A DNA stretch of 64,000 nt. Origin: Stereum hirsutum FP-91666 SS1. Taxonomy: Eukaryota; Basidiomycota; Agaricomycetes; Russulales; Stereaceae. Below are positions 41,256-64,000 of the stretch, piece by piece. The position numbers and the translations under genes are program-made. A model generated the notes under the pieces. That model did no database searches, had not been told where the DNA came from, and was given only the letters and a program-made list of their open reading frames with translations. The first letter of the stretch is position 1; each line of letters begins with the position of its first letter. The stretch is taken from assembly GCF_000264905.1 (NCBI RefSeq), contig NW_006763134.1:2332580-2396579 (forward strand), given 5' to 3'.

Positions 41256-41430
41256 ATGTCTCCGCTCGTGGAGAGCCCGAGGGGGCGTATGGATTATACG
41301 TTCGCCAACAATTCTCTACCGTCTCAAGCTCCTCTCCGAACGCTTCGCCGCCACAGCCCGCGACCTCGAGCTTGCACACGCAGCTCTACCACCCGACGAC
41401 GACAAAGACGGGCTCGGAGGATCTGAGGCC
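39700..41430 (+). repeat. Dispersed repeat copy R1 (HMG upstream region plus 5' gene fragment)
   Basis: R1 matches the reverse complement of ~57.78-55.6 kb (R3 plus the HMG-gene start) and, for its first half, 50.59-51.75 kb (R2). Anchors: agtccctcggccgat, the gaggat.cggagatttc block, aggttaggaacgacggtccga, and ttctcgaggacgatg, followed in R1 and R3 only by gcattgtcgac and ctcaccgccaac. Confidence 0.82.
41236..41426 (+). pseudogene. Truncated 5' fragment of an HMG-box gene
   Basis: At 41256 the frame MSPLVESPRGRMDYTF parallels residues ~54-69 of the HMG-box protein encoded at 52681-55843 (MPPLVERPRGQMEYTF), and the bases before it (agagagcgat) match too. Beyond this point similarity ends and the frame stops at 41424-41426. 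The HMG domain and the rest of the gene are missing. Together with the homologous upstream DNA this shows a duplicated but 3'-truncated gene. Confidence 0.75.
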
Positions 41431-41660
41431 GTCAAAGTCTAACAGAGATCAGGGAGCAGGTCGGATGCCTGGAAAGGACTGGGAAGGAGCTGGCCAATGC
41501 GTGTCTCAATCGACTGGGCCGGGGACTGGTCAGTGGCGCGAATGCAAATGTCACAGACAAGGTGATGAGGGGGAGAATGTGGGTGCCGGTGTGCTGCTTT
41601 GTGTGTTCGGGGCTGCGCAGTGGGCCCGACAAGTTTCGAGTGTTTGATATTGTTGTATGA
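41311..41660 (+). pseudogene. Frameshifted coding relic of unknown family
   Basis: From 41311 a frame reads ILYRLKLLSERFAATARDLE and LAHAALPPDDDKDGL up to a stop at 41440. Two bases on, the next frame continues EIREQVGCLERTGKELANAC, LNRLGRG and VWVPV-like text, ending VFDIVV and a stop at 41658. Both halves look like genuine amphipathic protein, and the break fits a 1-2 base indel. The family is not recognised. Chance cannot be excluded, because the stretch is only ~115 codons. Confidence 0.35.
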
Positions 41661-43184: not shown

Positions 43185-44557
43185 ACAGAGTTTTTGTGTA
43201 AGTCGACTGGCATTCGTGCAAAAGAGGCATCCGGATCTGGATCCAGCATCGGTCAAGCGTGCATCTTTCGATTTCTTTACGATTCTCATTCGTCTTGCTT
43301 CCAGCCAGCCCATAACATATTGCCTTTACGCATCTTCACATGGAGAAGAATTCGAATAGGCCGCATGGTACGTAGGACTCATATCGTTACGCTTTTCCTG
43401 CATACTTATTGGTACATCTAAATGACTTCTCATGGTCTCCCTTCTGTGGTAAGTGCCGCAAAAAGCGAATGAAGGCCCCGTTCGATGAAGCTATCAAATA
43501 TGACACCTCTCAAGCCCTAAGTACTCCGGTCTCTGAGTCGTTGGATTTGATACAAGGTCAGTGTGGATCCAGGCAGACTTTGCCTCTCTTCGTCATAACC
43601 ATCATCTGTCGCGCGAATCGTGCTTCAGCTAACGTAGACTCCGCCCGCTCTAGCTCAAAGCTGAGTACTGTCCATGTGGTCCCTCTCATAGCGGGCATTG
43701 CAGGGAACTCGCTCCCTGATTCCTGTCGATATTCACCTCACGAACTTCGGGGGCTTATACGATATCTCCTTGAACAAACTAGTTCTACCACGATGCATGA
43801 CAATGATGCAGGTCTGTCCACGACCATTGAGGCTGTGAGATCTGAACAGCGGCTTGTCGTAGACCAAGAGTTCTCCTTACAATGATCCTTCGAGCTCATG
43901 CGGCGATTCGAGCGAGTTGGCCAATTGAGGGACCTTAACTATTGGTACGCCTTCCGTCTATGTTTCGAGCTCACGAGTGAGCTGTCATGTCCAGAGGAGG
44001 CCATCAGTTCGATACGACCCACTTCGCAGATCACTATGCCTCCGGACGTGAAAAATATGAGCCCAGAATCAGCGATAGTTCAAACGAAGGTTTGTTCCTG
44101 CGGTATCGATACCTGTGTTATCGTCCTGACTTCGAGGAAAGTGTTTCTTTGACTTCTGCTCGTGGTCGAACTCGATGCTGAACTCGTCCAACTCTTATAC
44201 ATCAACGGCACTTTAAATTCTGAGTCAAGTCCCTACGTCGGCGGCAGCGGTCGTGGAGTAAAAGACGACCACGTCCAAGCCGTTCTCTCCAACATCTCAG
44301 GAGCCTCCATCCTCCATCTCGTATGCCACGGCTCCGCACAGGATATCTTCCCCGAGAGTAGCAGCTTTCTCCTCCGAGATGGTGAGCTGACGCTCTCGCA
44401 GTTATTGCAGCTCGAGCTTCCGTTGACGCAGTTCCCGTTCTTGAGTGCGTTCAATTCGGCGACGGGGGACGAGTCGAGGTTGGATGGAAGAATGTATATG
44501 GCGGCGGCGATGTTGACGGTGGGATTCAAGAGCGTCACTGGGACAATGTGGCGGTGA
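43185..44557 (+). pseudogene. CHAT-domain pseudogene, internally deleted, catalytic Cys lost
   Basis: This is a copy of the TPR-CHAT gene at 35.5-39.5 kb. Its start codon position is mutated. VVPLIAGIAGNSLPDSCRYSP and the following ~60 residues align, then a Cys codon of the parent has become TGA (near 43883). About 85 bp is missing between GQLRDL and YAFRLCFELTSELS. Soon after DFEESVSL (near 44.15 kb) ~2.5 kb of the parent, nearly all TPR units and the start of the CHAT domain, is deleted. The sequence resumes at VELDAELVQLL. The remaining CHAT core keeps the His (VCHGS, codon 44327-44329) and FLLRDGELTLSQLL, but SACDS reads SAFNS: TGC became TTC at 44450-44452. It ends at GTMWR, lacking the last exon. 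Product, if any, is catalytically dead. Confidence 0.9.
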
Positions 44558-44834
44558 TTCCGTTCTATTTTCGGCCTACGCCAGCCTGAGACTGCCGTCC
44601 AAATACTTATAAATGGCTTATCCGCACCAATCCTAGTGCTATGAGGGTGTATGTATGCGGTCCTCATGTATTCTATACTTACTCTGCTGCCGTGCATGGC
44701 CCTTGAGGCCGACACGTGTATATATGGCTACCGCCAAGTTGAGCGCCAACGCACACCTTCCTCCTCGACAGCCATCTCTTCTCATCGAACAGCTCGAATT
44801 TCATCCTCGCAAATTTCTCAACAGTTCTTACTCG
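44558..44834. other. Short spacer, CHAT pseudogene to NLR
   Basis: Only ~280 bp, presumably holding the NLR promoter and leader. An in-frame ATG at 44655 could extend the NLR by 60 residues, but that stretch is Ser/Arg-rich and does not resemble the family start. Confidence 0.5.
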
Positions 44835-47800
44835 ATGGCGAATACTCCAGATTTCTCCGATATCTGGAATGAGGCTGTGGACAAGCACAAGTCGGAGACG
44901 AAGTCCGACTCGCTGCCCCTTGACTCTTTGGGCACTACCAATAGCGTCGAGGCTATCCTGACAGCGATCGCAGGGAATCGGAAGGATTTTGAGGACAGTC
45001 GGGCGAAGGGAAAGAGTCTGCGAGATGTATTGAAGCCTGTCGTGAAGGTCGTGCAGCTGATGGCGGAGGTGGCAGGAGAAGGGGCGAACTTGGTGCGTGC
45101 GCGCTATTAATGACCGCTTACGAGCGTCAACCTCTTCCTTCCTGACTGCCTATGTTGGAATTAGGCTTTCTCACCGGGAAAGACGATATTCGTTGCCATT
45201 GGGGTACTGCTTAAGGTATCTTTTTCGTATACAACATTGCGCTCAATGCTGACTGAATATTCTCCAATCATTTATCTATTGTAGGCCTCCGACGGGGTCA
45301 GCAAATGCTACGACTCGGTGATCGACATCTTCGAGAGCCTCGAAAGCTTTCTCGGCCGCTTGACCACGTATCTCGAGCACGATATATCGTGTCTGATGAA
45401 GGAGGTAATCGTCAAGATTCTCGCACACCTTTTATCGATCTTGGGAGTGGCGACTAGGCTCATAAGAGAACGCCGTGCGGGTAAGTGAAACATGGTATCT
45501 GGTAAAAATGTACAACAATGACGGGCGACTTTCGGCAGTTACATACTTAAAAACTCTGATCGGGAAGAACAGCGAGGTTCAAGTCGCGATGGAGAAATTG
45601 GACAAGCTAACTGCGCAGGAAGGTCGAGCGGTTGCAACTGCTACGCTTTCGTCGGCGAGTGAGATTCGAGCGGTCGCAACTGCTACGCTTTCGGCGGCGA
45701 GTGAGATACTCTCGCAGCTGGAGACTAGGATGAAATGTTTGTTTTCTTGTTGTGCGATTGTCTTAGATCTGTGACTAACCACACCGGCCGGTACTTTCCA
45801 GCCGATCAACAGGACGCGAACGCTATCAAGACGATGCTGATGAAGATCGCTCAGGAAGCTGAAGCGATATCTGGTATGATTAAATTCACGCTCCCTTTTC
45901 TGTCATTGATTCTGGATCACATGTGTCATAGGTAGCTCTCAAGAGGGTCGAATCATGCTCGAAGAAATTCGGGAGCATATCATGAAAAATTCAAAGAAGG
46001 TCTTACCATATCTTGGTAAGTACACTCTATCTACTAAGAGCATCATTCCATGGTACCTATTCTCTTTGTAGCCAATCATCATCGGTTTGAGGTCCATAAA
46101 TGGCTGTCAGCTCCTTCCTCAGTGTCAAATTACGAGGACAACAAAAGCCTGCGAGAGGCCGGGACCGGATCGTGGTTCATCCAATCTGCGGACTACAACC
46201 AGTGGAAAAGCAAGAGTAACTCCCTATTATGGGTTTCAGGCGGCCGTAAGTAGTTCAATGGTTCAACGAAGAGCATATGCTGATCGTTATCATCGGTAGC
46301 TGGGTCCGGAAAGAGCGTGTTGTCGTGCGTATACCTAACCTAGGTGACTGACATGAATACTGACACCACTGCATCCTAGTTCCACCATCATAAGCGACAT
46401 CGAGTTTAACTCTGTAGTCGACTCGTCTCTTTCGCTTGCCTACTTCTACTTCGACTTCAGGGACTCGGAAAAACAGCACTGTCTAGGGCTTATCTCGTCG
46501 CTCATTGATCAGCTTGCTTCTCGTTGCTCGGACATGCCTACCGCTCTGGAGCAGCTCTATGCTGTTCATCGGAATGGGATGGAGCGACCGACGCTGCACA
46601 AACTAGTCACAGCTTTGAAGGAGATGATAATGAGCATCACCTGCAGGGTTTACATCGTCATTGACGCTCTTGATGAATGCTCACAGCGGAAGAATCTCAT
46701 GGCTCTCATTGAGCAAATGACAAAGTGGAATCTTGGCAATCTGCATATGCTGCTCACGAGCCGGAAGGAAGAGGATTTGAATCATTCTCTGCTGCCGCTG
46801 TCAGTAGAGGTCAATCTCGAAAGCTCCCTCGTTGATAGAGACATTGCATTTCATGTTCGCACTGTCTTGCAGAATGACCGAGCCTTCTCGAAGTGGCAGC
46901 CACCGCAGAAGCTCGAAATAGAAACCAGTTTGACAAAAGGAGCCCGTGGAATGTATGTGTTCATCTCTGATTCTATGCCTAATTGGATGCTTATAAATTC
47001 ATGCAGGTTCCGATGGGTATTTTGCCAGTTGGATAGCATTCGAGGATGTCCTAATGCAAGAACATTGACAAAATGCCTAGACACTCTGCCAAAGACACTG
47101 TATGAGACGTATGACAGGATTCTTAAGCACATCGACGACCAACATTTCGAGTATGTTCATGCCACACTGCAGTGGCTTGCATTCTCTATGCGCCCGGTCA
47201 AACTGGAGGAGGTTGTGGAAGTGCTGGCCATGGATTTCGACAATGTCCCTTTACAATTTGTACCGGGGTATCGCTTCCCTGAACCACGAGAGATTCTTAC
47301 TATTTGCTCCAGTTTGGTCACACTTTCCGGAACTGGTGTCTTAGAACTCTCACATTTCTCCGTTAAGGAGTATCTTGACACGAATATGACCGAATGTAGT
47401 ATCCAACGCTATTCATTCAATGCCCAGATTGCCCACGAATTCATAGCCCGCACCTGTATTGCATATCTGATGCAGTTCACACAATCTGTGGATGACATTG
47501 GGCCCTTCCCCCTGGCTCGTTATGCAGCAGAGCATTGGATGAACCATGTTGGATCTGCTCATACCGATGCCCTAGCCGAGCTTGCTTTCAATCTTCTCCA
47601 GGCTCACAGCGTGGCTTTTGTTAATTTGGTCAGAATTTGTGATGTGGATCACCCTTACAGTCCACCGAAACTATCACGGCCACATCATGATATTCCTACT
47701 CCACTCTACTACGCAGCAGGGGCAGGTTTTGTCAGAGTATCCCAGAAATTGCTAGAGCACGGTGCTGAGGTGAATGCGCAGGGCGGCTACTACGGGAATG

Positions 47801-49000
47801 CGCTCCAGGTGGCGTCGCTTGGCGGTCACATCGCTGTCGTGGAGCTGCTGCTCGAGAAGGGGGCCGACGTGAATGCGCAGGGCGGCATATACAAGAATGC
47901 GCTCCAGGCGGCGTCACGTGGCGGTCACATCGCTGTCATGGAGCTGCTGCTCAAGAAGGGGGCCAACGTGAATGCGCAGGGCGGCGGATACAGGAATGCG
48001 CTCCAGGCGGCGTCATTTGGCGGTCACAAAGCTGTCATGGAGCTGCTACTCGAGAAGGGGGCCGACGTGAATGCGCAGGGCGGCTTCTACGGAAATGCGC
48101 TCCAGGCGACATCGGCTGCAGGTCACAAAGCTGTCGTGGAGCTGCTGCTCGAGAAGGGGGCCGACGTGAATGCGCAGAGCGGCGTATACAGGAATGCGCT
48201 CCAGGCGGTGTCGTACAGCGGTCACATCGCTGTTGTGGAGCTGCTGCTCAAGAAGGGGGCCGATGTGAATGCGCAGGGCGGCGAATACGGGAATGCGCTC
48301 CAGGCGGCGTCGGAAGGCGGTCACATTGCTGTCGTGGAGCTGCTGCTCAAGAAGGGGGCCGACGTGAATGCCCAGGGTGGCCGGTACAGGAATGCGCTCC
48401 AGGCGGCGTCATTTTGCGGTCACATCGCTGTCGTGGAGCTTCTGCTCAAGAAGGGGGCCGACGTGAATGTGCAGGGTGGCCTATACGGAAATCTGCTTCA
48501 GGCGGCATCGCTTTTTGGTCACAAAGCTGTGGTGGAGCTGCTACTGGAGAAGGGGGCCGACGTGAATGCGCAGGGCGGTGGATACGGAAATGCGCTCCGG
48601 GTGGCGTCGGAATGCGGTCACATCACTGTCGTGGAGCTGCTGCTCGAGAAGGGGGCCGATGTGAATGCCCAGGGCGGCGAATACGGGAATGCGCTCCAGG
48701 CAGCATCACGTTACGGTCATAAAGCCGTCATGGAGCGGCTGCTGAAGCACATGGAAATCCAGGACAATCTCTCAAAGGTAAGCTTGGGATATATCTGTGG
48801 TTTATCCTCATCTTTCTTGTGTCATGTCCTGACGAAATTAAATTTGGTTTCAGAATGTATTGACCCAAGGTCCAACTCCACCTGCGAGTAAGATTGATGT
48901 AAACACGAGTTCAGACTGTGCATCCTCGGACAGTGCATCCGAGTCTAGCTTCTCCAGTGATGACAATGATGGCTACTTCTCTGCTCAAAGTAGTTTATAA
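44835..49000 (+). CDS. NLR protein: Goodbye domain - NACHT - ankyrin repeats (copy 1)
   Basis: Eleven exons (44835-45092, 45165-45215, 45285-45480, 45539-45736, 45802-45873, 45932-46015, 46072-46245, 46300-46324, 46380-46952, 47007-48777, 48854-49000) close in frame to 1,182 residues. Residues 1-168 fit the fungal STAND N-terminal Goodbye domain: FSDIWNEAVDKHKSET, SPGKTIFVAIGVLLKASDGV, and HDISCLMKEVIVKILAHLL with LSILGVATRLIRERRAG. A linker contains two tandem RAVATATLS(S/A)ASEI units. NACHT: Walker A GPGSGKS (~345-350), Walker B YIVIDALDECS (D448). After the winged-helix region (LSHFSVKEYL), one degenerate and ten near-identical 33-residue ankyrin units begin near residue 775. The acidic tail ends DDNDGYFSAQSSL. 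Fungal NLRs of this type are cytosolic sensors in non-self recognition and cell death; the ligand is unknown. Confidence 0.92.
45625..45708 (+). repeat. 42-bp tandem duplication in the NLR linker
   Basis: Two adjacent 42-bp units encode RAVATATLSSASEI and RAVATATLSAASEI. The same doublet is present in NLR copy 2, so it predates the gene duplication or was kept by conversion. Confidence 0.9.
47770..48756 (+). repeat. Ten 99-bp ankyrin units, NLR copy 1
   Basis: Each unit follows VNAQGG-x-Y-x-NALQAAS, then x-x-GH-x-AV-x-ELLL-x-KGAD. Bases are nearly identical between units (gtgaatgcgcagggcggc, ctcgagaagggggccgac). Differences cluster at unit positions 7, 9, 17, 18, 21 and 24. Confidence 0.95.
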
Positions 49001-50589
49001 TTTATTCATGCACATCCTTCCCCCTTCTCGACTTCTTGATTCCGATTCTGGGATTGCACGAATCAATTGTGACATGAGCTTAGGACACGAAGGTGTTCGC
49101 TTCTCGTTGGGCTGCATGCTTATGTCCGTATGAGTGCTTGCCAGTGACGCACAGATCTCAGGATTTACTACTTAGTCCCTAGTTGTAGTATCACTCGAGT
49201 CTCCGGTCGATAAAGTTGACTCGAGATAAATGTACCGGAGTACAGTGGCTGAGAGGGTGTTGATTGTCGTGTATATTGAATTCTATATTTCCTGCACTCA
49301 CAATCTAACTCACGATCATAGAGTGAGATTAAGATATTAGTTCATCTGACTGAGATCCCTAACCTTCCATCGAAAACCAAGCAACATACTTGCGCTCCGA
49401 AGTATCCCATTAAATCATCAACAGTAGTACTGTCAAAACAAGAAACATGTCGTTGAGGTTTCAGCAACGGAAAACGTGAGCTATGAGGGGCGGAAACCGA
49501 TGATAAGTAAGTATACGGTGCCGCTGATACTCCGAACTAGAGATTTATTTACAACTTACTTATACCAAATTGGCCATGCGGGTGCCGAAGGCGATACTTG
49601 ACGAACACATTCAAGCGGGCGTCGATTAGTACTTTCACAGAAACACATAAGAGGGGCTCGAGAGGGACGCACGTACTTATTATCGACGTGTAGAAGTAAG
49701 TAGCTTGATCGACGTGCTCTGCTCTGCTCTTCTCGCTCGCGCCGTGCTTCGTTCTTGGAGAATCCCCAACCCACCTTCCTCCAAGGACCAAGAATCGAAA
49801 ATCTTCTTCCCCGTTCCACCCTCTCTCGAAACTTGCAGATCAGGCAGTCCAGTTCGCGCAGGATACACTCCGAATGTTTTGATACATAGTCGTAAGTACT
49901 ATAGCCAGTCGAGTGTCCGTGGAAAGCGGTGATACTTGGGTAATTTAAATATGTCTGCGTCCTTGAGCTAGATGCACCAGAGAATTTCCACCAAGGAGCT
50001 TCAGAACTTCACTCGCAAGTCGATGTCCGGGTCGCCAAATGATCCAGATGAGAAAGCATTAAAACGACGAACATTTCCAGGGTGGGACAGAGCAAGGCGC
50101 AGAGCTGCACGAGTACTAGGATCAAGGACGACGACATGTGTTGAGTCCAGGTGCTGAAGACACTAAGTAGCATGCAAGTCGCGCACCAAGTCTATAGGAT
50201 GGAGATCGTGGTGTGGTTGTATATGCCAGCGGCACGGCGTAGTCCATGAATATCGCCAGAAACTTTCCTGTCAATGATGGCCACGCGAGTCTCGAAAGAC
50301 GAGATGCGTCCCCGGCGACCTACTACTTCAAGTTACGAAAGCAGCGGTTTTACTTGTGACGATGTGGCGTCGGATATGTCAGTCATAAGTCCAGTGAGCT
50401 GGGCGAAAGGCAGTCTGTAGAAGGTTGCAATCAATAATCGCTGGACCAGAACAGGGGGAAACATTGCTGTCGTGGTTTGGTCATACTCGTAAAGTCAACC
50501 AGAGTCGACGCCGCCATTCGAGAAAGATTCGGTGTTTAACAGGGCCTATCCATCCATAGTATGAGCCCGCCCTGATCACAGAGTCCTCA
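49001..50589. other. Downstream flank of NLR copy 1
   Basis: The first ~560 bp is duplicated beside NLR copy 2. The remaining kilobase has no recognised gene; short frames at 49556-49819 (-) and 49972-50157 (+) lack motifs. Confidence 0.5.
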
Positions 50590-51750
50590 GGTCTGTCTGA
50601 GGCCCGAGCTTTCAGTCCCAATTGGCGCTCAAATAAAGCACGGAGGGACAATGACGAAGAGACGAAAAGGCAGTCACAGCGATGAAGACTTCTTCTTCGT
50701 GCGAGACCAAGTCGGTGTTATAGTCCCTCGGCCGATACCACCCATCCAGTATTTCAGTACCAGTATACAGTATTCGAGATCCCAGGGAGAGTACGCAAAG
50801 CCCCCGTTGGAGCATTCGATGAAGTTGGAAAGATTGAGGATTCGGAGATTTCGACCGTGTAATAGGCAGAGCTGAGCGGCAAACGCTGATCAGACGACAA
50901 TATATACAGTCTACTGCCAGAAAAAATACGTACTCAGAACAGGACGCGAAGGTTAGGAACGACGGTCCGATAGGTCGAGGTAGGTGGGATGTGATGACGT
51001 ACGACGAAGAGCGCAGAGGAAAACAAGGAGTTCCAGGACTGAGGGATGCGCGAGCGAACGTGACTGGTAAAAGTTAGATAAATGCCACAGAGGTGGATGC
51101 AGAACTGAAAGCTGAGAACGCAGAGCAAATGAACACGACGAGGGATAGCGACTCATGAGCGCAGGAATAGGGCCTGACGACCGTCGACCTTCAGAGCCTC
51201 AAGGCCTCATATGCGCCCACCGAGTCTGATTCCTATTCCCATCCCATCTTCATCTCCGCCACGCCCGACGCACACAGATTTCTAAAGAGCAATCAGCACA
51301 AACGACCGCCCAGATAGAGATAGATAGAGGGGACGAGATAGAGTTGGTGGGGAGCAGATCGATACAAGATCGATATCGAGGTCGAGCGAAACCGAAGGAG
51401 GTGCGCCTGTTGCTATTCCTGATCTTCCGTGGTGGTCACTGGTGGGCGGTGCGGATTAGGTGGTAATTGAGGAAGACCGGATGTGTGGGCGTTGGGGACC
51501 TTATCGGCAATGTGTTCTCGAGGACGATGTCGGTGGGTGGCGGGAGAGGGAGATCGGATGACGTGGCCCGGTGCATCCTCTCATGCCCATGCTCATATGG
51601 CCACCGATACAGTATCCTACATAGAGCAATGGCTGGCAATAGTAGCCTTTGTAGGTGCACGTACCAGAGCAGACTTCCACCTGAGACGGCGATCGAGCAT
51701 ATGTTGAACAATGGGTCGGACCCGGATCGAGCACATAATTCATAGGCCGT
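50590..51750 (+). repeat. Dispersed repeat copy R2 (HMG upstream region only)
   Basis: R2 matches the reverse complement of 57.78-56.54 kb (R3) and the first half of R1. Anchors: gagaccaagtcggtgttatagtccctcgg (shortened forms in R1), aggttaggaacgacggtccga, the gaccgtcgacctt block, and tgtgttctcgaggacgatg. After ~51.75 kb similarity is lost, and no HMG gene fragment follows. Confidence 0.82.
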
Positions 51751-52680
51751 GAACTTTGAACTCAGTACATCTGTACATCTGTGCCTCTTCTTACGACACA
51801 GCGGTCCAAACAAACAAAGCCCAATCCAATTCAAAACATCGGATGAGTACGACACATGCAGGCATGACACATAACTTAGCTAGTAAAACAGCATACGACA
51901 TACAACATGATTCAGGACTCGGATAGCATATACACAGCGAATCGATTGGTTTCACATAACACTGGATAGTTCAGATTGTCCGAGATAGAGATGGAGAGGG
52001 ACTCATACGAGAAGACGCGACACGACGAAACACAACACCACTTAACACACAACACCCGTTAACGCACAACAAAGGATCCTAATCATACAAGTACACCCAC
52101 ATCCACATCCACATCCACATCCACATCCACATCCACATCCACCGGAGATAGAAATGAGCGGAGATCTGGATAGAAATAACAGAGATAGCAGAGAGAGGGA
52201 GAAAAAAGAAATACAACATGTATAGTTGCATATTGAGTATATTCCGCGTGTTCAGACAGATGAGATAGAGAGGATAGCAGTGCACTGTGCGTTTGTGTAT
52301 CCGGCGAGAGAGAGAAAAAAAAGATAGAATGAAAGGAAGGAAGAACGTTTCCGGACGTGTACGACGTGGGGAAAGAAATTTGAAAGCATGGGAGAGCAAA
52401 AAGAAAAAGCAAGAGGCATAAGACGCATCGTGTACGCGAAGGAAAATGAAAAGGAAGAGGAAAGGAAGACGCATACGATAGATAGACCGACAGAGAAGAA
52501 AAAAAGGACATCCCATCCCGCCACCTTCACCGAAGGGCGGGGGTGGGTGTATAGTTAGAAGTTAGAAGTACAACAAGCGGTCCTTGTTCCAGTTTAAATA
52601 TCCAGAACGAAAAAAAAGAAGAAAGAAAAGAGAAAAGAGAAAATCTCGCCACCATTCCCGCCTTTACCACCATTGGAAAC
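51751..52680. other. 3' flank of the HMG-box gene
   Basis: No gene recognised. It contains a hexanucleotide microsatellite and purine-rich DNA. Open minus-strand frames at 52083-52530 are Phe/Ser-rich readings of this low-complexity sequence and not supported. Confidence 0.5.
52096..52141. repeat. CATCCA hexanucleotide microsatellite
   Basis: About seven and a half units of acatcc(acatcc). The same hexamer, as gtggat on this strand, recurs inside exon 1 of the HMG-box gene at 55035-55069. Confidence 0.95.
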
Positions 52681-55600
52681 TCACACCCCCCACCCCGCAT
52701 CCAGTTGATACGCACCATGGCCATAAGGCCCATCCACCTCGCCCTCAGATCCCTGCATGCTTACATACCCATTCCCCCACACATCCGGCACGGCCTGCCC
52801 CTCTCCTTGCAGCCCATATCCGTACCCATACCCATACTGACCCTGACTCTGCGAACACGCCTCTGCACCCCACCCGCCCTGACTCGCATACCCGTTCGTA
52901 GCCGCACTCGAAGGTGCAGTGAAAGGCGGATACGGAAATGGCTCAGGCGACGACTCCTCCGGCGACGAAGCGGAATAATATAAATCGGGCGTCATCGACG
53001 GGCGGGCGTTTGCGTACTGGGCGGCGTCGGCTGTGGCGTTTGCGAGTGCGAAAGCTGCGTCGGTAGTATTGCCAAAGGCGGAAGAGCTAGAGGATGCGTC
53101 GGGGGAGAAGAAGGCCGCGTTCGCGGTCGCGTAGGTCGAAGTGCCGTATGTTCCTTGTCCTTGTCCTTGTCCTTGTTGCGTCGTGGCGGGAGCAGGGCTA
53201 GACGCTTGTCCAGCCCAACCCGTCAAAGTCGAATACGTCGACAACGGTGGCCTGGATGTGGTGATGTTATCCTGGACCTGGACGTAGGGTGTGGCGGTGA
53301 CGGTGGCGTATGGTTGATTCGTGGTGTAAGAGTTATGCTGTGGAATCTAGAGGATATACGGCAATGCGAATAGATCGTCAGCGTCCATCCAAACAAAAGA
53401 AAATATAGTCTGGAAGAGGAAGAGGAATTGGAGATAGTTCGCATACCTCGTTCCACGTATAACCCTGCGCATACATCTGGCTCTGACCGACCTGACCAGC
53501 CTGTATCTGCATCTGCATCTGCCCATTCTCATATACCGGCACCTGAGCCTGAATCGAATCGACAGATCCTCGTCGCATGTACATGGCCGTCAGTGGCACT
53601 TGAGGCTGCTCTTGTGGGACTTGTGCTTGGGACTGTTCGTCTTGTACTTGTGCTTCGGCTTCGGCTTTGGCTTGTGCGTTCGAGTTCGAATTCGCCGACG
53701 GCTGATGCCCTTCCTCGAAAGCGACAGAAGGCGATCGCTCCCTCTTCACCTCCCTGCTTTCCCTTTCTCCCCCGTTCACTCCATCTACTCCATCCACCTC
53801 AACGACTCCTCCATCCCTCTCAACCTCCCACTCCCAGATCGCCCTCTCCAACTCCCCACCTTTCAATCCTCGATGGATAAAAGAGGCGATCTGTTCGCAG
53901 CGTTCGTCGCGACGGGTGTGCGAGGCTGCGGTCGAGGCTGCAGTTGGGGGGTTGGAGTGTTGGTTTGATTTAGTGTGGGGATGGGGATGGGGATGGGTGG
54001 GGGGTTTCGTAGTTAATGCCGGGGGAAGACTTGTGGTAGAGTGGGCGTGGGCGTGGTCGTCGTTGGCGGCGGGGTTCTCAGGAGCGGGAGACGATGTTTC
54101 TATCTCAATCGAGGGCTCGACATTGGCGGTGGCGGTGGCGACATCGTCCTTCCGTGCTCTCGTCCTCGCCCGTGCACTCTCGTCTTCGTCCTCCCCATTC
54201 TCCGCATCTGCGTCATCCGCATGATGTGCGTCTGAATATGCTTCGATCTCTTCACCCCTCTTACGTTTCTTGCCCTTCCCTTTCGCGCCCTTCCCTTGCG
54301 CGCCCTTAGCCTTCCCACCTTTACCCTTCTTCTTCTTTGGCATCGCACTACTACTCCCGCCCTCATCCACACCAACGCCCCCCCAATCCCATTCCCCCTG
54401 CTGCCCATTCTCTCCCCCATTCCCTTCGGCGTGCATACTATTCAAAGACATCGACATGGACAAAGCAGAGGCCGCAGCGGCTTTATTATCACCAGGCGAA
54501 AACCTCCAATGCGGATATCGCGCCCGATGCGCCTCCAGCGCGTCTGCGGCTTTGGCGTCCCAGATCGCGCGTTCGTGAGGGGGGAGTTTCTTCCATACGT
54601 GGCCTGTTGGACGAAGGACGAGGAGAAAAAGATAGCGTGAGTTTCGATCTGGGACTCGGTCGAGGAAGAGGATAAACGAATCGCGAAACGACAGTTTGGG
54701 ATGTAAAGTGGAAGAAGCGCAAAGCCAGTGCCACCACCCCCCTCACGGTCCCCAAAACGCCAACAACGCCACAAAGACTACCATAAGAAACGCCACCAAG
54801 AAACACCACCACAAAACCACCCAAAAAAACGCCGCCTAAAAACATGAAAAAAAAAACTCACCGCATATCTTACTCAACGAACTATGTCTCCCCTCGATCC
54901 TCCCCGGAATCGCACGGGACTTGATGAACGAACTCCGGAAAATGATGAACGCGTTCGGCGGACGGGGGATGTAGCCGTCGTCGCGGGGGGGTTTTTTCGT
55001 GCGGGGGCGGGGGCGGGATTGGGGTTGGGGTTGCGTGGATGTGGATGTGGATGTGGATGTGGATGTGGTTTGAGTTTGAGTTTCGGTTGATTGGGATGGA
55101 GGAGGGTTTGGGTTGGAGGGTGAGGAAGAGGAAGAGGGTGGAGGGGGAGCAGGGGAAAGCCGGGCGACTACAGCCTGAGCAGAAGATAGAGCGGGAGAGT
55201 TGGACGTAGGTACCGCGGTATGTTGACCCTGCGGAACAGCGAACGCGAAAGAAGGCGATGCATGAGAATGATCGGGCGACACGGGCGACATCATCGGTGA
55301 AGGGCTCGCGTAAAACTCGGAGAATGAAGAGGTTGCGCCGGGTGTGGATGGCGAGAGCGTGAGCATCGATGAAGATGCGGGGAAAGAGTACGCGTGGTTG
55401 TGGTTGTGGCTGGATGGAGAGGGCGAATAGTTATTGTTGGATGTGATGACCTCGAATTGGCCATACGCGTATCCGTGTCCATATCCATAACCGTGACTCG
55501 ACGCGTCGCGAGAGGGTGTCGCGATAGTCAGAGGCGCGTTATGTTGTTGTTGTTGGTTGTAGTTTGTGTTATTATTATTGTTACTGATGTAACTGCCGTC

Positions 55601-55843
55601 GTTGACATGTTGTGTCTCGTTATCGATAGTGTTGATGAAGGTGTACTCCATCTGCCCCCTCGGTCTCTCCACGAGCGGAGGCATATCGCTCTCCGACCCG
55701 TCGACGTCTAATCCCTTGACCGATGTGGAGTTGAATCCGGATATGAATGCGGATGTGGATGGGGGAGGAGGTAGGTTGGAGAAGTTGAAGAAGATGGAGG
55801 GAGGACAGTGAGAGATGGGCGGCCGATCGACGAGCGGAGGCAT
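52681..55843 (-). CDS. HMG-box transcription factor
   Basis: Three exons on the minus strand (54862-55843, 53447-54603, 52681-53346) close in frame to 934 residues. Two similar starts, MPPLVDRP and MPPLVERP, lie 53 residues apart at the N-terminus. Residues ~70-285 are low-complexity: Asn/Gln runs, YGYGHGYAYG, and a Thr-Ser run. The HMG domain (~290-365) is split by an intron: YIPRPPNAFIIFRSSFIKSR, then SLSKICG|HVWKKLPPHERAIW and LEAHRARYPHWRFSP. This is the fungal MATA_HMG/sequence-specific class (RPPNAF start) seen in mating-type and pheromone-response regulators. A basic GKGKKRKR stretch after the box is a likely nuclear signal; the rest is disordered, with a Tyr/Gly/Gln-rich tail ending in GAYQLDAGWGV. 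Targets are unknown. The first intron (258 bp) is long for this window. Confidence 0.9.
55035..55069 (-). repeat. Hexanucleotide repeat coding for Thr-Ser dipeptides
   Basis: GTGGAT units on the plus strand translate on the minus strand as alternating Thr-Ser just before the HMG domain. Length polymorphism would alter the protein without frameshift, since the unit is 6 bp. Confidence 0.9.
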
Positions 55844-58323
55844 TTCTTCTGTGGTTCGAGCGTGGGAAAATGGGTTCGGTTGGTGTCAGCGTCCGTGTTG
55901 GGCACAATAGACCACGAACAATGGCATGAAGGAGAACAAGAAGACGAGAGAGGAACAAGGACGAAGATAAAAAGAAGAAAAGAGACGGGAGAAAAGGACT
56001 GGGCAAAGACGGCGTGATAAAAACGAGGGCGGATGTATAGCCACACCGGCAACAAAACACGCACCGTGGTCATAGCCTGCGTGGATCTGCGCACGCGCAT
56101 TGTTGGCGGTGAGGGAGAGTGCGAGCATGTCGACAATGCAAAAAACCTCGAACGCGATCTCTCGTTCGAACCCAAATCGATCTGATCTCGGCCTTATCTT
56201 TCTACTACTAAACAAAAAGTATTTACCAAATTACCAAGGACACCGCCTATAGCACCGCACAGAGCTACGGGGCGGGGGGACAAAGGAGAGGGGAAGGAAA
56301 GGAGGAGGGAAGGAAGGAGGGCGAAAGGAGAGCGGTTTAGAAGGGGCAGGCGCTGGGACGCCCTCACGGAGGTGCATTGTGCCAGGAATGGAAGGTCCCT
56401 CGCCTGTCTGTGAATCCCTTCCCCTTTCGGACGACCGGCGACTTCCCTCGGCACACCGCCTTCTCCTCATCCTCACATTCGTCCATCCTCTGCTATGCGT
56501 GCAATTTGCTGCTGCTGCCAGTCTCTGCTCTATGTCTGATACTGTAACGTCGGCCGTGCTGAGCATATGCATAAGAGGATGCAACGAGCCACGTCATCCG
56601 ATCTCTTTCTCCCGCCACCCACCGACATCGTCCTCGAGAACACACTCAGTCCAGATAAGGCCCCCTTCGCCCACCCATCCGGTTCTCCTCAATTGCCGTC
56701 TAATTTGCACTGCCCACCACCACGGAAGATCAGAAATAGCAACAGGCGCACCTTGTTCAGTTTCACTCGACGTCGGTATTGCGTGATGCTGCATGTGCTC
56801 CCTCAACTCTATCTCGTCCTCTCTAATCTATCTCTATCTGGGTCATCGTTTGTGATGATAGCCCTTTAAAGATTCTGGGTACATGCGTCGTCGGGCGTGG
56901 CGGAGATGAAGATGGGATGGGAATACGAATCAGACGAGCTGGGCGCATATGAGGCCTTGAGGCTTTGAAGGTCGATGGTCGTCAGGCCCTACATACTTAT
57001 TCCTGCGCTCATGAGTCGCTATCCCTCGTCGTGTTCATTTACTCTGTGTTCTCAGTTTTGAGTTCTGCAGCTAGGTCCGTTGCGTTCATCTATCCTTGTC
57101 ATGTTGCTCGCGATGCGCGTCTCCACGTCCTCGAATTCCTTGTTTCCTCCCTTGCGCTCCTCGTCCAACGTCATCTCACCCCACCTTACCTTGTCCTATC
57201 GGACCGTCGTTCCTAATCCCGCGTCCGATTCAGACTTGGACTCGTTTCTGGCAGTAGAGTGTTTATATCGTCCTCTGATCAGCCTTCGCCGCTCATCTCT
57301 GCCTATCAGACGGGCGAAATCTCCGTATCCTCAATCTTGGCGTCCTTGACGAGTGTTCCAACGGGGATTCTGCCTACTCTCTCTGGGATCTCGAATACTG
57401 GGTGCAGGATAGTGTATACTGTGTACTGAACACATAGACTATACAGTGTATCGTCTGAATCTTGATCAGCGTTCTACCTCTTGCCTCTGAATCTGCCTGT
57501 TACACGGACGAAATCTTCGAATCCTCAATATTTAATCTCGGCGTCTTGGACGAGCGCTCTAACGGTAGTCTGCTCACTCTTTTGAATGTACATGTTTGGA
57601 TGTGGAACGGTCGAATACTCAATACTGTAATACTGTGTGAGTGCACAAGCTGTCGGCCGAGGGACTATAACGCCGACCTGGTCTCGCACGAAGAAGTCGT
57701 CTTCACTACTGGCAACTGTCTTTTCCTCTCTTCGTCATCATCTTCGAGCGCCAACTGGGCCTGGGACCGAAATCCAACGTGGGCGGACGATGCAAGTCTA
57801 AGTGTGGAGGTGAGCTAGTGTCTAAAATCGAAGCTGGCTCGCACTACGGACAGTTTATATTTCCTAACTTCCGATCGTTCTTCGAGTATCCCTACTGCTA
57901 CCGGACGGCGTCGGCTCTGACTGACTTCAGGTTTGCGAGTATGGGCTCACCGTTTCTTCCTATCCATCGATCATACCTCGCCACCTCCTACAGAATATTT
58001 TTTCCCGCAGCTCACCAGACTTGTGGCCCAGGGTAAGCTACTCACTGTGGTTAGCACATTCGACGCGGCATCGTCACTTGATGAGTGATAGGTCTTCGGG
58101 GACGCACCTTTCAAAGCTCGCGTGAGCGGAGGGAACGTTTCTGGTGATATTCAAGTTCGTGGACTTTTCGCTACTGGCGTAACCGCACCACAATCTTCAT
58201 ATTATACAGACTCGGTGCCGGGGCGCACGAATTGCATACTGATGTCTCCAGCATCTGTCGTCCATGCCAATGATGCCTTTCATATCAGTACTCGTGCAGC
58301 GCTGCGCCTTGCTCTATCCCACA
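55844..58323. other. HMG-gene promoter region and repeat R3
   Basis: From 55.85 to 57.78 kb the DNA is homologous to R1 (entirely) and R2 (distal half). No intact gene recognised. Between 57.8 and 58.3 kb short protein-like patches occur (VFGDAPFKARVSGGNVSGDI near 58.1 kb), but no gene model was built. Confidence 0.5.
56540..57780 (-). repeat. Dispersed repeat copy R3 (upstream of intact HMG gene)
   Basis: Reverse-complement counterpart of R2 (50590-51750) and of the first half of R1 (from 39700). It is the copy still attached to a full-length HMG-box gene and so is the likely source. Confidence 0.82.
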
Positions 58324-58730
58324 ATGGCTGTCGTCAGTGTCTTCTCGTTTGGCTCATTTGGGGACATTGTCGCCGTCGTCCGACTTGCGGATTACGTTCG
58401 AAAGCTGTTTGGTGACTTGGTGAATGCTCTGGCGCGTCGGAAGAATGAGTATCAGCAGTTAATTTCGGAGCTAAGCACTTCACGATCATTCTCTCCGTAT
58501 TTTTCACTTCTCCATCATTGTCATTGACACAACGCCTCACAGTCTAAGAACGTATTCCATGAACATTTGCCTGGCTACTATAAAACTATGCATCGAAAGC
58601 TATGAGAGTATTATACGCGATCTGGACGGGTCACGGCGAGATCTGCGAGTTGCGAGGGAGGGCGGAACGGAGAGGACGATGTTTGGCTCTTGGAGGAAGG
58701 TCGATCGAGAGTTCTGTAAGAACGACTAAC
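58324..58730 (+). CDS. Short protein with fungal NLR-associated N-terminal-like helix region
   Basis: The ATG at 58324 opens MAVVSVFSFGSFGDIVAVVR followed by LADYVRKLFGDL. It splices (gtattt near 58.50 kb to cag near 58.54 kb) to NICLATIKLCIESYESIIRD and REGGTERTMFGSWRKVDREF, stopping at 58728-58730, ~120 residues. The pattern 'FSFG..GDI.A...LA..V...F' followed by a helix with 'W+K' resembles the N-terminal region of fungal proteins with a ubiquitin-like domain (family members usually begin MSFGF.VGDFIAV) and of some NACHT proteins. Those normally continue for hundreds of residues, so this is truncated, a fragment, or spliced differently. It lies between the HMG region and NLR copy 2. Family assignment is by eye and tentative. 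Confidence 0.4.
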
Positions 58731-59457
58731 TCATTGCAGCACAGCGCGAGCTCGCAGTGAATCAGGCTACGTCTAGACGTTGATAATACTGTACGTTGCA
58801 TCCCTCTTACTTATGTGTTGCTGGAAAACCATTGACGTCCGCACGATGTATTCGTCAAGTAAATATCACCGTCACGACTCACCGTACGATATAAGTAAGT
58901 CTCTAGCTCGGAGTATCAGCGGCACCGTATACCTAACCATCATTAGTTTCTGCCCCTCGTAGCTCACATTTTCTGTTGCTGAGAACTCAATGACAGGGTT
59001 CTTCTCCCGACTGTACCAGTATTGATAATTTAATGGGATACTTCGAAGCGTATGTTGCTTGGTTTTCGATCGAAGGGTGGGAATCTCAGTCAGATGGACT
59101 ACTTCAGTAAGCACACTACTTCCTTCTATGACAGTAATCTCACTCTGTGATCGTGAGGCAAGACTGTGAGTGAGTACTAGGAAATATCGAATCAAGGTTA
59201 CACGACAATCAACATCCTCTCAGCCTATGTAATTTGGTACATTTGCTTCAAGCCAACTTCTTTGACCAGACACTCGAGTGATACAACTAAGGACTGAATA
59301 GTATTCCCAGAGGTCGACGCGTCACACACACATCGACATCAGTATGCAGCCCAACGAGAGGCAAACACCTTCGTATCCTGAAGCGCACATCACGACACAT
59401 TCACTCGTAGGATCGGAATCAAGAAGTGAAGAAAGGGGAAGAAGGTGCGTGAGTAGA
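58731..59457. other. 3' flank of NLR copy 2
   Basis: From ~58.87 kb to 59.46 kb this is the inverted counterpart of 49.0-49.56 kb. A minus-strand frame at 58872-59195 (107 codons, ending ARDLLISYGES) is open here but interrupted in the left-arm copy, so it is not supported as a gene. Confidence 0.55.
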
Positions 59458-62400
59458 TTATAAACTACTTTGAGCAGAAAAGTAGCCATCATTGTCATCA
59501 CTAGAGGAGCTAGATGCATCGTCCGAGGAGGATGAATAGTAGTCTGAACTCGTGTACTCAGATGAAGCCGCATTCTCAGCCCCCTTCTCGAGCAGCAGCT
59601 TCTCGATAGCTTTATGATCAAAATGTGATGCCGCCTGAAGTGCAGTCCCGTATTGGCCGCCCCGAACATTCACGTCGGCCCTCTTCTCAAGCAGCAGCTC
59701 CACGACAGCGATGTGACCGGGAATCGAGGCCGCCTGGAGTGTATTCCCGTAGAAGCCGCCCTGCGCATTCACGTCGGCCCCCTTCTCGAGCAGCAGCTCC
59801 ACGACAGCTTTGTGACCCCAAACCGACGCCGCCTGGAGTGCATTCCCATATTTGCCACCCTGCACATTCACATCGGCCCCCTTCTCGAGCAGCAGCTCCA
59901 TGACAGTGATGTGACCGCCTGCCGACGCCGCCTGGAGCGCATTCCCGTAGTAGCCACCCTGCGCATTCACGTCAGCCCCCTTCTCGAGCAGCAGTATTAC
60001 AACAGCTTTGTAACCGCCTTGCGATGCCGCCTGGAGCGCAGTCCTATATTCGCCACCCTGCGCATTCACGTGAGCCCCCTTCTCGAGCAGCAGCCCCACG
60101 ACAGCGATTTGACCGCGATACGACGCCGCCTGGAGCGCATTCCCGTATGTGCCACCCTGCACATTCACGTCGGCCCCCTTCTCGAGCAGCAGCTCCACGA
60201 CATCAATGTTACCGCCAAACGACGCCATCTGGAGCGCATTTCCGGATCGGCCACCCTGCTCATTCACATCGGCCCCCTTCTCGAGCAGAAGCTCCACGAC
60301 AGCTTTGTGACCGCGAAGCGACGCCGCCCGGAGCGCATTCCCGTAGAAGCCGCCCTGCTCATTCACATCGGCCCCCTTCTCGAGCAGAAGCTCCACGACA
60401 GCTTTGTGGCCACGAACCGACGCCGCCTGGAGCGCATTCCTGTAGTGGCCGCCCTGCACATTCACATCGGCCCCCTTCTCCAGCAGTCGTTCCACGATAG
60501 TGTTGTGACCGCCACGAGACGCCGCCTGGAGCGCATTGTCGTGGACGCCGCCCTGCGCATTCACGTCGGCACCCTTCTCGAGCAGCAGCTCCACGACAGC
60601 GATGTTACCGCCAACTGACGCCGCCTGGAGCGCATTCCCGTAGTAGCCGCCCTGCGCATTCACGTCGGCCCCCTTCTCGAGCAGCAGCTCCACGACAGCT
60701 TTGTGACCGCCAGAAGACGCCGCCTGGAGCGCATTCCTGTATTCGCCGTCCTGCGCATTCACGTCGGCCCCCTTCTCGAGCAGCAGCTCCACAACAGCTT
60801 TGTGACCGTGGTAAGATGCCGCCTGGAGCGCATTCCCAAATCTGCCGCCCTGCGCATTCACGTCGGCCCCCTTCTCGAGCAGCAGCTCTACGACGGCAAT
60901 GTGACCGTAAACCGATGCCGCCTGGAGTGCATTCCCGTATCGGCCGCCCTGCGCATTCACGTCGGCGCCCTTCTCAAGCAGCAGCTCCACCACAGCAATG
61001 TGACCGTCAACCGATGCTGCTTGGAGTGCATTCCCAAAATCACCACACTGCACATTCATGTTGGCCCCATGCTCCAGCAATTTCTGTGATACTCTGACAA
61101 AACCAGCCCTTGCTGTGTAGTAGAGGGGAGTAGGAATATCATGAGGTGGTCGTGATAGTTCTGTGAAATCGTAATGGCGGTCCACATCGTAAATTCGGAC
61201 CCAATTGACAAAAACCATGCTCTGGGCCTGGAGAAGGTCGAAAGCAAGGTCTGCCAGGGCATCGGTATGAGCAGATTGAACATGTTTCATCCAATACTTT
61301 GCTGCATAAACAGCAAGGGGGAAGGGCTCAATATCATCCAGAGATTCTGTGAACTGCATCAAATATGCAATACAGGTGCGGGCTATGAATTCGTGGGCAA
61401 TCTGGGCATTGAATGAATAGTCTCGAACATCGGGTTCAGTAATCTTTCTGTTAAGATACTCCTTAACGGAGAAGTGCGAGAGTTCTAGAACACCAGTTCC
61501 GGAAAGTGTGACCAAACTGGGGCAGATAGTAAGAATATCTCGTGGTCTAGGGAAACGATCCTCCGGTACAAATCGTAAAGGGACACTGTCGAAATCCATG
61601 GCCAGCACTTCCACAACCTCCTCCAGTGTGACCGGGCGCATAGAGAATGCAAGCCACTGCAGGATGGCCTGAACATACTGAGAATCTTTGTCATCAACGT
61701 GCTTAAGAATCCTGTCATATGTCTCATACAGTGTCTTTGGCAGAGTGGCTAGGCACTTTGTCAACCATCTTGCGCTACGACATCCTTGAATGCTGTCCAG
61801 CTGGCAAGATACCCATCGGAACCTACATGAAAGTATGAGCATCAAATTAAGCATACCATCAGAGATAAACACATACATTCCATGTGCTCCTTCTGTCAAA
61901 CTGGTTTCTATTTTGAGCTTCTGCGGCGGCTGCCACTTCGAAAAGTCTGGGTCATTATGCAAGACAGTGCGAACATGGAATGCGATGTCTCTATCAACAG
62001 GAGAGCTCTCGAGATTGACCTCTACTGACAGCGGCAGCAGAGAATGATTCAGGTCCTCTTCCTTCCGACTTGTGAGCAACATATGCAGATTGGCAAGATT
62101 CCACTTTGTCATTTGCTCAATGAGAGCCATGAGATTCTTCCGCTGCGAGCATTCATCAAGAGCATCGATAATGATGTAAACACTGCAGGTGATGCTCATC
62201 ATGATCTCCTTCAGAGCTGCGACTAGATTGTGAAGCGTCGGTCGCTCCATCCCATTTCGATGAATAGCATAGAGCCGCTCCAGAGCGGCAGGCATGTCCG
62301 AGCAACGAGAAGCAAGCTGGTCAACAAGCGACGAGACAAGCCCTAGACAACGCTCTTTTTCCAAGTCCCTGAAGTCAAAGTAGAAGTAGGCAAGCGAAAC

Positions 62401-64000
62401 AGACGAGTCGACTTCAGAGTTAAACTCGATGTCCCTTATGATGGTGGAACTAAGAAACCATGGCGTCAGTAATCATGTCAGTCGTCTATGTCACACATAC
62501 GCACGACAATACACTCTTTCCGGATCCAGCTACCGGTGTTAACGATCAACATTCGCTCTTGATTGAACCATCAAATCACTTACGGCCACCTGAAACCCAT
62601 AATAGGGAATTACTCTTGGTCTTCCACTGGTTATATTCCGTAGATTGGATGAACCACGATCCGGTCCCGGCTTGTCGCACGCTACCATTGTGGTCGTTGT
62701 TTGACACCGGAGACGGGGCTGACAGCCATTCATGGACTTTGGAACGATACTGATTGGCTACAAGAAAGTAGAAGCCATGAGATTATGCCCTTAGTAGATA
62801 GAGCGTACTTACAAAGATATGGCAAGGCTTCCTCTGTATTTTTCATGATATGCGCCCGGATTTCTTCGAGTATGATTCGACTCTCTTGGGAATTACCTAC
62901 GACAGGTGCGATCCACAATCAATGATAGAACCAGGGAGCTGGAGTTGAATCGTACCGGATAGCGCCTCGGCTTCCTGAGCGATCTTCGTCAGCATCGTCT
63001 TGATAGCGTTCGCGTCCTCTTGATCAGCTGGAAAGTACGGGTCGGTGTAGTGAGGCATAGATCTAAGACAGTCGCACAATGAAAAAAAAAAAAAAAAACA
63101 TACAATTCATTCTAGTCTCCAGCTGCGAGAGTATCTCACTCGCCGCCGAAAGCGTAGCAGTTGCGACCGCTCGAATTTCACTCGCCGACGAAAGCGTAGC
63201 ACTTGCAACCGCTCGACCTTCCTGAGCAGTCAGCTTGTCCAATTTCTCCATAGCGGCTTGAACCTCGCTGTTCTTGCCGATCAAAGTTTTGAAGTATGTA
63301 ACTGCCGAATGCCACCTTTCATTTTTGTGCGTTTCTACCAGACACCGTATGCGACTTACCCGCACGGTGTTCTCTTATGAGCCTAGTCGCCACTCCCAAG
63401 ATTGATAGAAGGTGAGCGAGAATCTTGACGATCACCTCCTTCAGCAGACGCGAAACATCATGTTCGAAATACACGGTCAAGCGGTCGAGGAAGCTTTCGA
63501 GGCTCTCGAAGATATCAATCACCGAGTCGTAGCTTTTGCTGACCTCATCGGAGGCCTATGATAAACAATTAATTGTGGAAGGTTCAGTTAGCTCTCTGCA
63601 CAATGTTGCTTATGGTGAAAATACCTTGAGCAGTATCCCAATGGCAACAAATATCGTCTTTCCCTGCGGAAACCCCTGATTGACAACACAGAAAGTCAGT
63701 GTCAACGCAGGCAGTCAGGAAGGAAGAGGTTGACGCTCGTAAGCGATCATTAATAGCGCGCGCACGCACCAAGTTCGCCCCTTCTCCTGCTACCTCCGCC
63801 ATCCGCTGCACGATCTTCACGACAGGTTTCAATACATTTCGCAGACTCTTTCCCTTCGCCCGACTGTCCTCAAAATCCTTCAGATTCCCTGCGATCGCTG
63901 TCAGGATAGCCTCGACGCTGTCGGCAGTGCCCAAAGAGTCAAGGGGCAGCGAGTCGGACTTCGTCTCCGATTTATACTTGTTCACAGCCTCATTCCAGAT
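59458..64000 (-). CDS. NLR protein: Goodbye domain - NACHT - ankyrin repeats (copy 2), start beyond window
   Basis: Same architecture and mostly the same intron sites as the NLR at 44835-49000. The window edge falls inside exon 1 (IWNEAVNKYKSETKSDSL), so only about nine N-terminal residues are missing. GFPQGKTIFVAIGILLK, EVIVKILAHLLSILGVATRL, the doubled RAVA(S/T)ATLS(S/A)ASEI linker, Walker A GSGKS on a 25-nt exon (62505-62529), and Walker B YIIIDALDECS are intact. The ankyrin region has one degenerate plus 15 consensus 33-residue units. It is fused without an intron to an Asp/Ser-rich tail that ends DDNDGYFSAQSSL exactly as in copy 1. No stop or frameshift was seen. One intron carries a 17-base T run (coding strand). 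Likely a paralogous sensor with different specificity. Confidence 0.9.
59560..61070 (-). repeat. Fifteen 99-bp ankyrin units, NLR copy 2
   Basis: The units have the same consensus as in copy 1, with deviant units such as NEQGGRSGNALQMAS and VNAQGGVHDNALQAAS. The five additional units relative to copy 1 indicate unequal exchange or slippage between repeats. Confidence 0.95.

Follow-up and report, generated by a model that had tools for sequence, protein, structure and literature searches.

An inverted segmental duplication carrying two Goodbye-NACHT-ankyrin receptor genes in Stereum hirsutum

Two genes for NOD-like receptors (NLRs), here called NLR1 and NLR2, lie tail to tail in the genome of the basidiomycete Stereum hirsutum FP-91666 SS1, and their mirror arrangement raises the question of whether it is itself a device by which the receptors vary or a by-product of the way in which the pair arose. 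The window analysed is a stretch of 64,000 nucleotides (NCBI RefSeq assembly GCF_000264905.1, contig NW_006763134.1, forward-strand positions 2,332,580 to 2,396,579), and searches of the source genome covered 46.0 Mb in 38 contigs. The labels C4, C6, C7, C15, C21, C25, and C26 denote contigs of this genome, with the window lying in C4; C6, C7, C15, and C21 also name the NLR paralogues that they carry. We favor, with a probability of roughly 0.78, the view that a segment with one NLR gene and its neighbors was duplicated in inverted orientation, giving two STAND (signal transduction ATPases with numerous domains) sensors that diversify by repeat turnover and selection. The way in which the duplication arose probably accounts for the mirror orientation.

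Two NLR genes in a collinear inverted duplication

NLR1 (44835-49000, + strand) comprises 11 exons and encodes a predicted protein of 1182 residues, and NLR2 (64027-59458, - strand) comprises 10 exons encoding 1331 residues, with a start codon at 64027 that lies 27 bp outside the window. These predicted gene models were derived by aligning the two copies to each other and were combined with Pfam matches and, for NLR1, a splice alignment. Both give the domain order Goodbye-NACHT-winged helix-ankyrin. Exons 1 to 9 are equal in length, nine introns coincide, and one further intron (48778-48853) is private to NLR1, near the end of the array and ahead of the C-terminus DDNDGYFSAQSSL that the two proteins have in common. 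The tandem repeat finder TRF identified a linker doublet in each gene (45624-45707, 2 x 42 bp, in NLR1, + strand; 63136-63216 in NLR2, - strand), as well as ankyrin arrays with a 99-bp period that run to 9.8 copies in NLR1 (47770-48743, + strand) and 15.2 copies in NLR2 (59579-61079, - strand).

Pfam matches to Goodbye, NPHP3_N, NACHT, and ankyrin were found in both proteins, the scan of NLR2 extending as far as its second ankyrin unit. The N-terminal Goodbye domain (PF17109) scores 83.2 bits in NLR1 and 81.3 bits in NLR2 with a cut-off of 24.8, and the NACHT domain (PF05729) scores 35.5 and 35.2 bits with a cut-off of 26.7; the winged-helix match just attains its cut-off of 27 bits in NLR2 and falls short of it in NLR1 (19.3 bits). 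The P-loop GGPGSGKS is intact in both proteins and split by an intron in both genes, being encoded jointly by exons 7 and 8 (46072-46324, + strand, interrupted by intron 46246-46299, in NLR1; 62505-62757, - strand, in NLR2). Thus, each protein has the sequence features of a fungal Goodbye-type NLR of the STAND class, namely a Goodbye domain, a NACHT domain with Walker A motif, and C-terminal superstructure-forming repeats. Across 807 aligned codons of the body and cap repeat, the rates of nonsynonymous (dN) and synonymous (dS) change are 0.086 and 0.251, giving an overall ratio of 0.34; dN/dS outside the array is low. An earlier note on this DNA had described two intact NLR genes in a tail-to-tail inverted duplication, having in common their domain order, most intron positions, the linker doublet, and the C-terminal residues, with intact P-loops and no disabling mutation. 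The gene models, Pfam matches, and self-BLASTN bear out this description, and the duplication proves larger than had been noted.

Indeed, the inverted homology found by BLASTN runs from about 40.7 to 51.6 kb against 66.8 to 56.5 kb. The left arm (40687-51646, + strand) contains a 5′ fragment of an HMG gene, a truncated CHAT gene, NLR1, its 3′ flank, and an HMG upstream fragment, and the right arm (56508 to about 66762, - strand, beyond the window end at 64000) contains an HMG upstream region, the 3′ flank, NLR2, a truncated CHAT gene, and an HMG 5′ fragment. Self-BLASTN gave inverted matches extending well past the ankyrin repeats: 43937-48743 with 64864-60086 (84%), 48903-49924 with 59555-58555 (71%), 50768-51646 with 57400-56508 (80%), 43170-43752 with 65609-65047 (83%), and 40743-41717 with 66654-65606 (79%). 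A likeness confined to the ankyrin repeats is ruled out by the continuation of inverted homology through the flanks. The two genes end 10.5 kb apart, and the common 3′ flank, which had been put at about 0.5 kb, is indeed present but reaches about 1 kb, to which the HMG upstream region is added. Genes and flanks alike are collinear in their inverted homology, as befits an inverted segmental duplication, or palindrome. Per-site differences by arm block are 0.141, 0.143, 0.139, 0.123 (the NLR before the array), 0.248, 0.300, and 0.179, so that blocks outside the array differ by 12 to 30%, and the longest exact matches between the arms are 68, 65, and 58 bp.

The flanking fragments suggest that the arms arose together. 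Each arm has a CHAT remnant (43170-44551, + strand, in the left arm; 64291-65609, beyond the window and upstream of NLR2, in the right arm) whose full-length relative is a TPR-CHAT gene at 35660-39302. Sequence corresponding to 36336-38842 in the full gene is missing from both remnants, with junctions that agree within about 20 bp, and the similarity of the remnants to one another (0.838) exceeds their similarity to the full gene (0.774 and 0.788). Likewise, the HMG fragments equivalent between the arms (H1-H4, 0.859; H2-H3, 0.816) are more similar than nonequivalent ones (H1-H2, 0.748; H1-H3, 0.756; H3-H4, 0.769). This pairing, in which equivalent pieces are closest to each other, supports one inverted duplication.

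Hypervariable positions in the ankyrin arrays

The arrays were compared as 23 repeat units, nine from NLR1 and 14 from NLR2, excluding the last unit of each array, which has a degenerate tail, and the cap unit that precedes each array. Variation is concentrated at three codons of the 33-codon unit. Entropy at codons 3, 13, and 14 is 3.38, 3.14, and 2.79 bits, with at most 1.30 bits at the other 30, and the triplets formed by these positions are distinct in all 23 units. Unlike codon pairs are almost all nonsynonymous at these positions (nonsynonymous/synonymous counts of 236/6, 231/3, and 204/2 of 253 pairs), in contrast to codon 12 (0/124). Counting by sites, the proportion of nonsynonymous differences (pN) at codons 3, 13, and 14 is 0.65 to 0.68 versus a synonymous proportion (pS) of 0.34 to 0.47, and at framework codons pN is 0.07 to 0.09 versus pS of 0.19 to 0.27. 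The same three positions are also the most variable in the 10 units of the C21 array.

We take the randomized positions of designed ankyrin repeat protein (DARPin) libraries to be seven in number, and positions 3, 13, and 14 all fall among them; given the positions assumed, the chance probability of this is 0.006. These three positions are probably the binding face. By sequence, the closest entries of known structure are DARPins, designed repeat proteins, and ankyrins, together with 6ne1 (Pfs, NACHT and Ankyrin domain protein). A single-sequence AlphaFold model of the NLR2 array (mean predicted local distance difference test (pLDDT) score 66.5) returned mostly DARPins and ankyrins in a fold search, and this predicted model adds little to the sequence match.

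Units within an array are similar, with mean identities of 0.79 in NLR1 (36 pairs) and 0.77 in NLR2 (91 pairs), and the best runs reach 0.80 and 0.84 over four units and 0.83 and 0.87 over three units (99 residues). Fungal NLRs with high internal conservation (HIC) are recognized by repeats of >85% identity over at least 100 residues; by our own measure, rather than the original program, both arrays fall below this value. Excess amino-acid change at hypervariable positions, another mark of HIC NLRs, is present according to the pairwise counts. The arrays thus work like HIC arrays and are not filed as such, being somewhat short of the threshold.

Repeat turnover can be seen elsewhere in the genome. 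In the C21 array (C21:334001-343000), units 3 and 8 do not differ in protein sequence or in the 30 framework codons, and units 4 and 9 hardly do. These pairs, five units apart, have the look of a block that was recently duplicated inside a single array, which supports within-gene turnover as a process running in the source genome.

Exchange between the arms and other explanations

If the palindrome were an active diversification device, its arms would pair, convert ankyrin repeats, and be able to invert the segment at 49.5 to 58.9 kb. The earlier note had regarded such a mechanism as already in place. We consider it unlikely, on evidence that points in both directions. The repeats of the two genes resemble one pool: framework dS is 0.224 within NLR1, 0.336 within NLR2, and 0.282 between them, and C21 repeats are distant from both (0.521 and 0.574). 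Framework difference between the genes (0.124) is within the range found inside each (0.106 and 0.137), and 3700 of 5000 permutations gave a value as large. The arrays have no significant mutual register, as 346 of 5000 shuffles were as good on silent sites and 3218 of 5000 on all sites, and the 23 units have a weak tendency to group by gene (five changes, with 53 of 1000 shuffles as low). This pool is not exclusive, however. The one unit taken from C15 lies no farther off than the units of the pair itself (dS 0.209 and 0.296), and one C7 unit falls into the NLR1/NLR2 part of the repeat tree. Moreover, equal divergence within and between arrays is also expected if array diversity predates the duplication.

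The 39-row repeat tree, to which C21, C7, and C15 contributed 10, 5, and 1 pattern-found units rather than full arrays (one C6 unit was dropped), has 90 columns and little power, with one of 35 inner branches well supported. In this tree the C21 repeats, in line with a pool common to NLR1 and NLR2, occupy one side of a branch whose support of 94/88 is just below the tool's mark for good support. Against exchange, the labels of NLR1 and NLR2 in the same tree do group by gene, with 0 and 3 of 500 shuffles reaching so low a value, and a single clade of NLR1 repeats is not rejected (approximately unbiased (AU) test, p = 0.08).

The flanks and gene bodies speak against arms that convert one another. 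Synonymous differences show no significant unevenness along the body of the NLR in windows of 30, 40, and 60 codons (p = 0.58, 0.12, and 0.26; with the more diverged cap repeat included, p = 0.29, 0.07, and 0.11). With arms 12 to 30% apart and a longest exact match of 68 bp, the locus lacks the character of a palindrome undergoing arm-to-arm conversion, and the view that such a mechanism is in place is not supported. Two HMG-derived flank blocks do hold identical runs (68 and 56 bases of gap-free columns) that were equaled in 1 of 1000 shuffles each, which constraint could explain; identical runs in the remaining five blocks did not reach 0.05. Partly intermixed repeats are compatible with exchange between the arrays and do not demand it. 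Repeat reordering is likely, and exchange between the arms is unproven.

It is still more doubtful that the mirror arrangement has been kept because the two arrays draw on a shared repeat pool, of which the intermixed and out-of-register repeats would be the trace. If this were true, exchange between inverted copies would convert or invert sequence yet could not delete one NLR or the HMG gene, unlike exchange between direct copies.

That one copy is a decaying pseudogene is quite improbable. In its favor, the adjoining CHAT and HMG pieces are fragments, and the C-termini differ by an intron that was gained or lost in one of them. Against this, 1182 and 1331 codons remain open with plausible splice sites, both P-loops are intact, and the overall dN/dS is 0.34. 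An assembly or haplotype artefact is the least probable explanation: the locus is known here from assembled sequence, but the window contains no N and hence no marked gap in the spacer, the arm blocks differ by 12 to 30% with different array lengths and private indels, both genes have open frames, and the contig spans 2.76 Mb.

In the favored reading, one fungal NLR gene was duplicated in inverted orientation along with its neighbors, which doubles the sensor repertoire. By analogy with other STAND receptors, each protein would work in the cytosol, the ankyrin array sensing, the NACHT domain acting as a nucleotide-driven switch, and the Goodbye domain providing an output, possibly one that causes cell death or acts on membranes. 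The sensors would diversify through gain, loss, and reordering of similar repeats and through diversifying selection at positions 3, 13, and 14. As to the output, PMC9815663 reports a four-helix core that Goodbye-like domains have in common with HeLo and MLKL domains.

Paralogues outside the locus offer a further view of the pair. The homologue search scored 7992 candidates sharing the most words, and its best protein match, among the best 120 of 209 matches, was STEHIDRAFT_160801 (P0001), which has 73% identity with NLR2; these 120 include neither NLR1 nor NLR2. P0001 maps to the C15 locus, with 96 to 100% identity in seven of nine TBLASTN pieces, 93% in a piece of 30 residues, and 50% in the ninth, an alignment across introns. 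This locus (C15:178001-188000), the closest outside paralogue, has about two ankyrin repeats followed by a different C-terminus with hydrophobic stretches, and its linker motif is present as a single copy, not a doublet. Synonymous divergence favors NLR1 and NLR2 as sisters (dS 0.225, versus 0.322 and 0.356 to C15).

Several observations weigh against the duplication and diversification proposed here. Site patterns with two outgroup paralogues favor NLR1 and NLR2 as sisters only modestly (24 versus 18 and 17). A fifth HMG fragment, H5, lies beyond the right arm and is no less close to H1 and H4 (0.869 and 0.863) than H1 is to H4, and the CHAT deletion junctions, about 20 bp apart between the arms, leave room for two independent deletions. 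With regard to selection, silent change is likewise raised at codons 3, 13, and 14, and the pairwise codon counts are not independent of one another and do not amount to a codon-model test. In the five units of paralogue C7, position 13 does not rank with the six most variable ones, and codons 3, 13, and 14 have a higher pS (0.731) than pN (0.543). With regard to the output domain, PMC9815663 cautions that a cell-death role of Goodbye-like domains is not established, and an AlphaFold model of P0001 has a mean pLDDT of 56.0, with values <50 over most of the Goodbye region, and was not used.

Neighboring genes and known systems

The spacer contains an HMG-box gene (53378-55843, - strand), recognized as two open reading frames (ORFs) over one intron with an HMG_box match of 1.7e-10 on the joined box; an ORF at 52681-53346 may be its 3′ exon. 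The description of a regulator gene between the arms holds to the extent that this gene is present, but its upstream region, to about 57738, lies inside the right arm. The HMG gene itself belongs to the right arm, and the left arm, closed by an orphan copy of the HMG upstream region (50651-51646, + strand, BLASTN), stops short of HMG coding sequence. The TPR-CHAT gene (35660-39302, + strand) is apparently complete and consists of two ORFs, the second with a CHAT match of 1.5e-28 and the first without a Pfam match, its TPR assignment being read from the sequence. Where this caspase-like gene has LSACDSA, the left remnant has LSAFNSA; the right remnant has LSACESA, yet split between frames.

All five genome matches of the HMG fragment fall in this cluster, and the CHAT and HMG segments gave no BLASTN row in stretches of 9 to 10 kb around paralogues C7, C15, C6, and C21. 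The simplest history starts from an older CHAT/HMG duplication, after which one CHAT copy underwent a deletion, the NLR segment was duplicated once in inverted orientation, and the copies diverged, the order and number of the older steps being inferred. This older multi-step history, recorded in the HMG and CHAT fragments, was absent from the earlier note.

Other features of the locus were also observed. Fragments at 41313-41682, 65606-66075, and 67049-67480, the latter two beyond the window, start HMG-like in two copies (MSPLVERPRGRMDYTFAN) and pass into a different coding-like stretch (RFAATARDLELAHAALPPDDDK...), with one copy ending in a hydrophobic segment; two ORFs tested from this set had no Pfam match. 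Hexamer tracts at 52093-52142 and 55035-55068, near the 3′ end of the HMG gene and inside it, are inverted and match over 34 bp. An AAAGA microsatellite occupies positions 1-189 (38 copies, 99% matches).

A search for a second palindromic NLR pair covered loci on C25 and C26. Two Goodbye loci on C25 (92587-96536, - strand; 116943-117572, + strand) have opposite orientations about 20 kb apart, and self-BLASTN of 38 kb gave two rows, both direct, which shows no palindrome in their DNA; on C26, two NLR stretches did not match each other. In the literature on fungal inverted NLR duplications, at the level of titles and abstracts, nothing on the NLR1/NLR2 locus was found.

DARPins have a 33-residue frame ending in GADVNA that is also found here, although NLR1 and NLR2 are natural receptors in which positions 5 and 17 are only moderately variable. 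PMC4986451 (2014) describes fungal NLRs with HIC ankyrin (ANK), TPR, and WD repeats, with ANK and TPR cases in both ascomycetes and basidiomycetes, and finds that the positively selected sites of Podospora NLR ankyrins lie, with one exception, on the concave face, in its inner helices and hairpins. NLR1 and NLR2 are like these HIC NLRs in joining NACHT to similar repeats, in the variation of repeat number, which here is between paralogues of one genome (9.8 versus 15.2), and in having hypervariable positions on the probable ankyrin binding face. They differ in forming an inverted paralogous pair with ends 10.5 kb apart and in a unit identity below 85%.

The Podospora HNWD genes (het-d and het-e) share with this pair high-identity repeats with few hypervariable codons, which PMC12222747 attributes to concerted evolution. 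Their repeats are of the WD40 type rather than ankyrin and group essentially according to gene, paralogues exchanging repeats on occasion, whereas clustering by gene of origin is weak here; the NLR1/NLR2 pair may be a departure from the Podospora pattern. Among Sordariales NLR clusters, 16 of 272 are made of paralogous copies according to PMC12258605. The present genes lie within the <40 kb used there to define a cluster, with one gene identified between them and perhaps more, and differ from most such clusters in being paralogous copies. The same source describes plant NLR pairs as head to head, highly diverged, and composed of a sensor plus a helper. The fungal pair resembles them in joining adjacent genes of opposite orientation and differs in being tail to tail, paralogous, and of the same architecture.

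The locus offers a compact natural test case, in which two receptors of the same origin have switch and output domains alike and arrays that differ in length and lack a clear common repeat order. It is suited to the question of whether ankyrin sensors of fungal NLRs exchange units between genes or only within one. Both the receptor type and the mode of repeat variation are already known in fungi, and the NLR1/NLR2 pair is a clean new example of them rather than a new kind.

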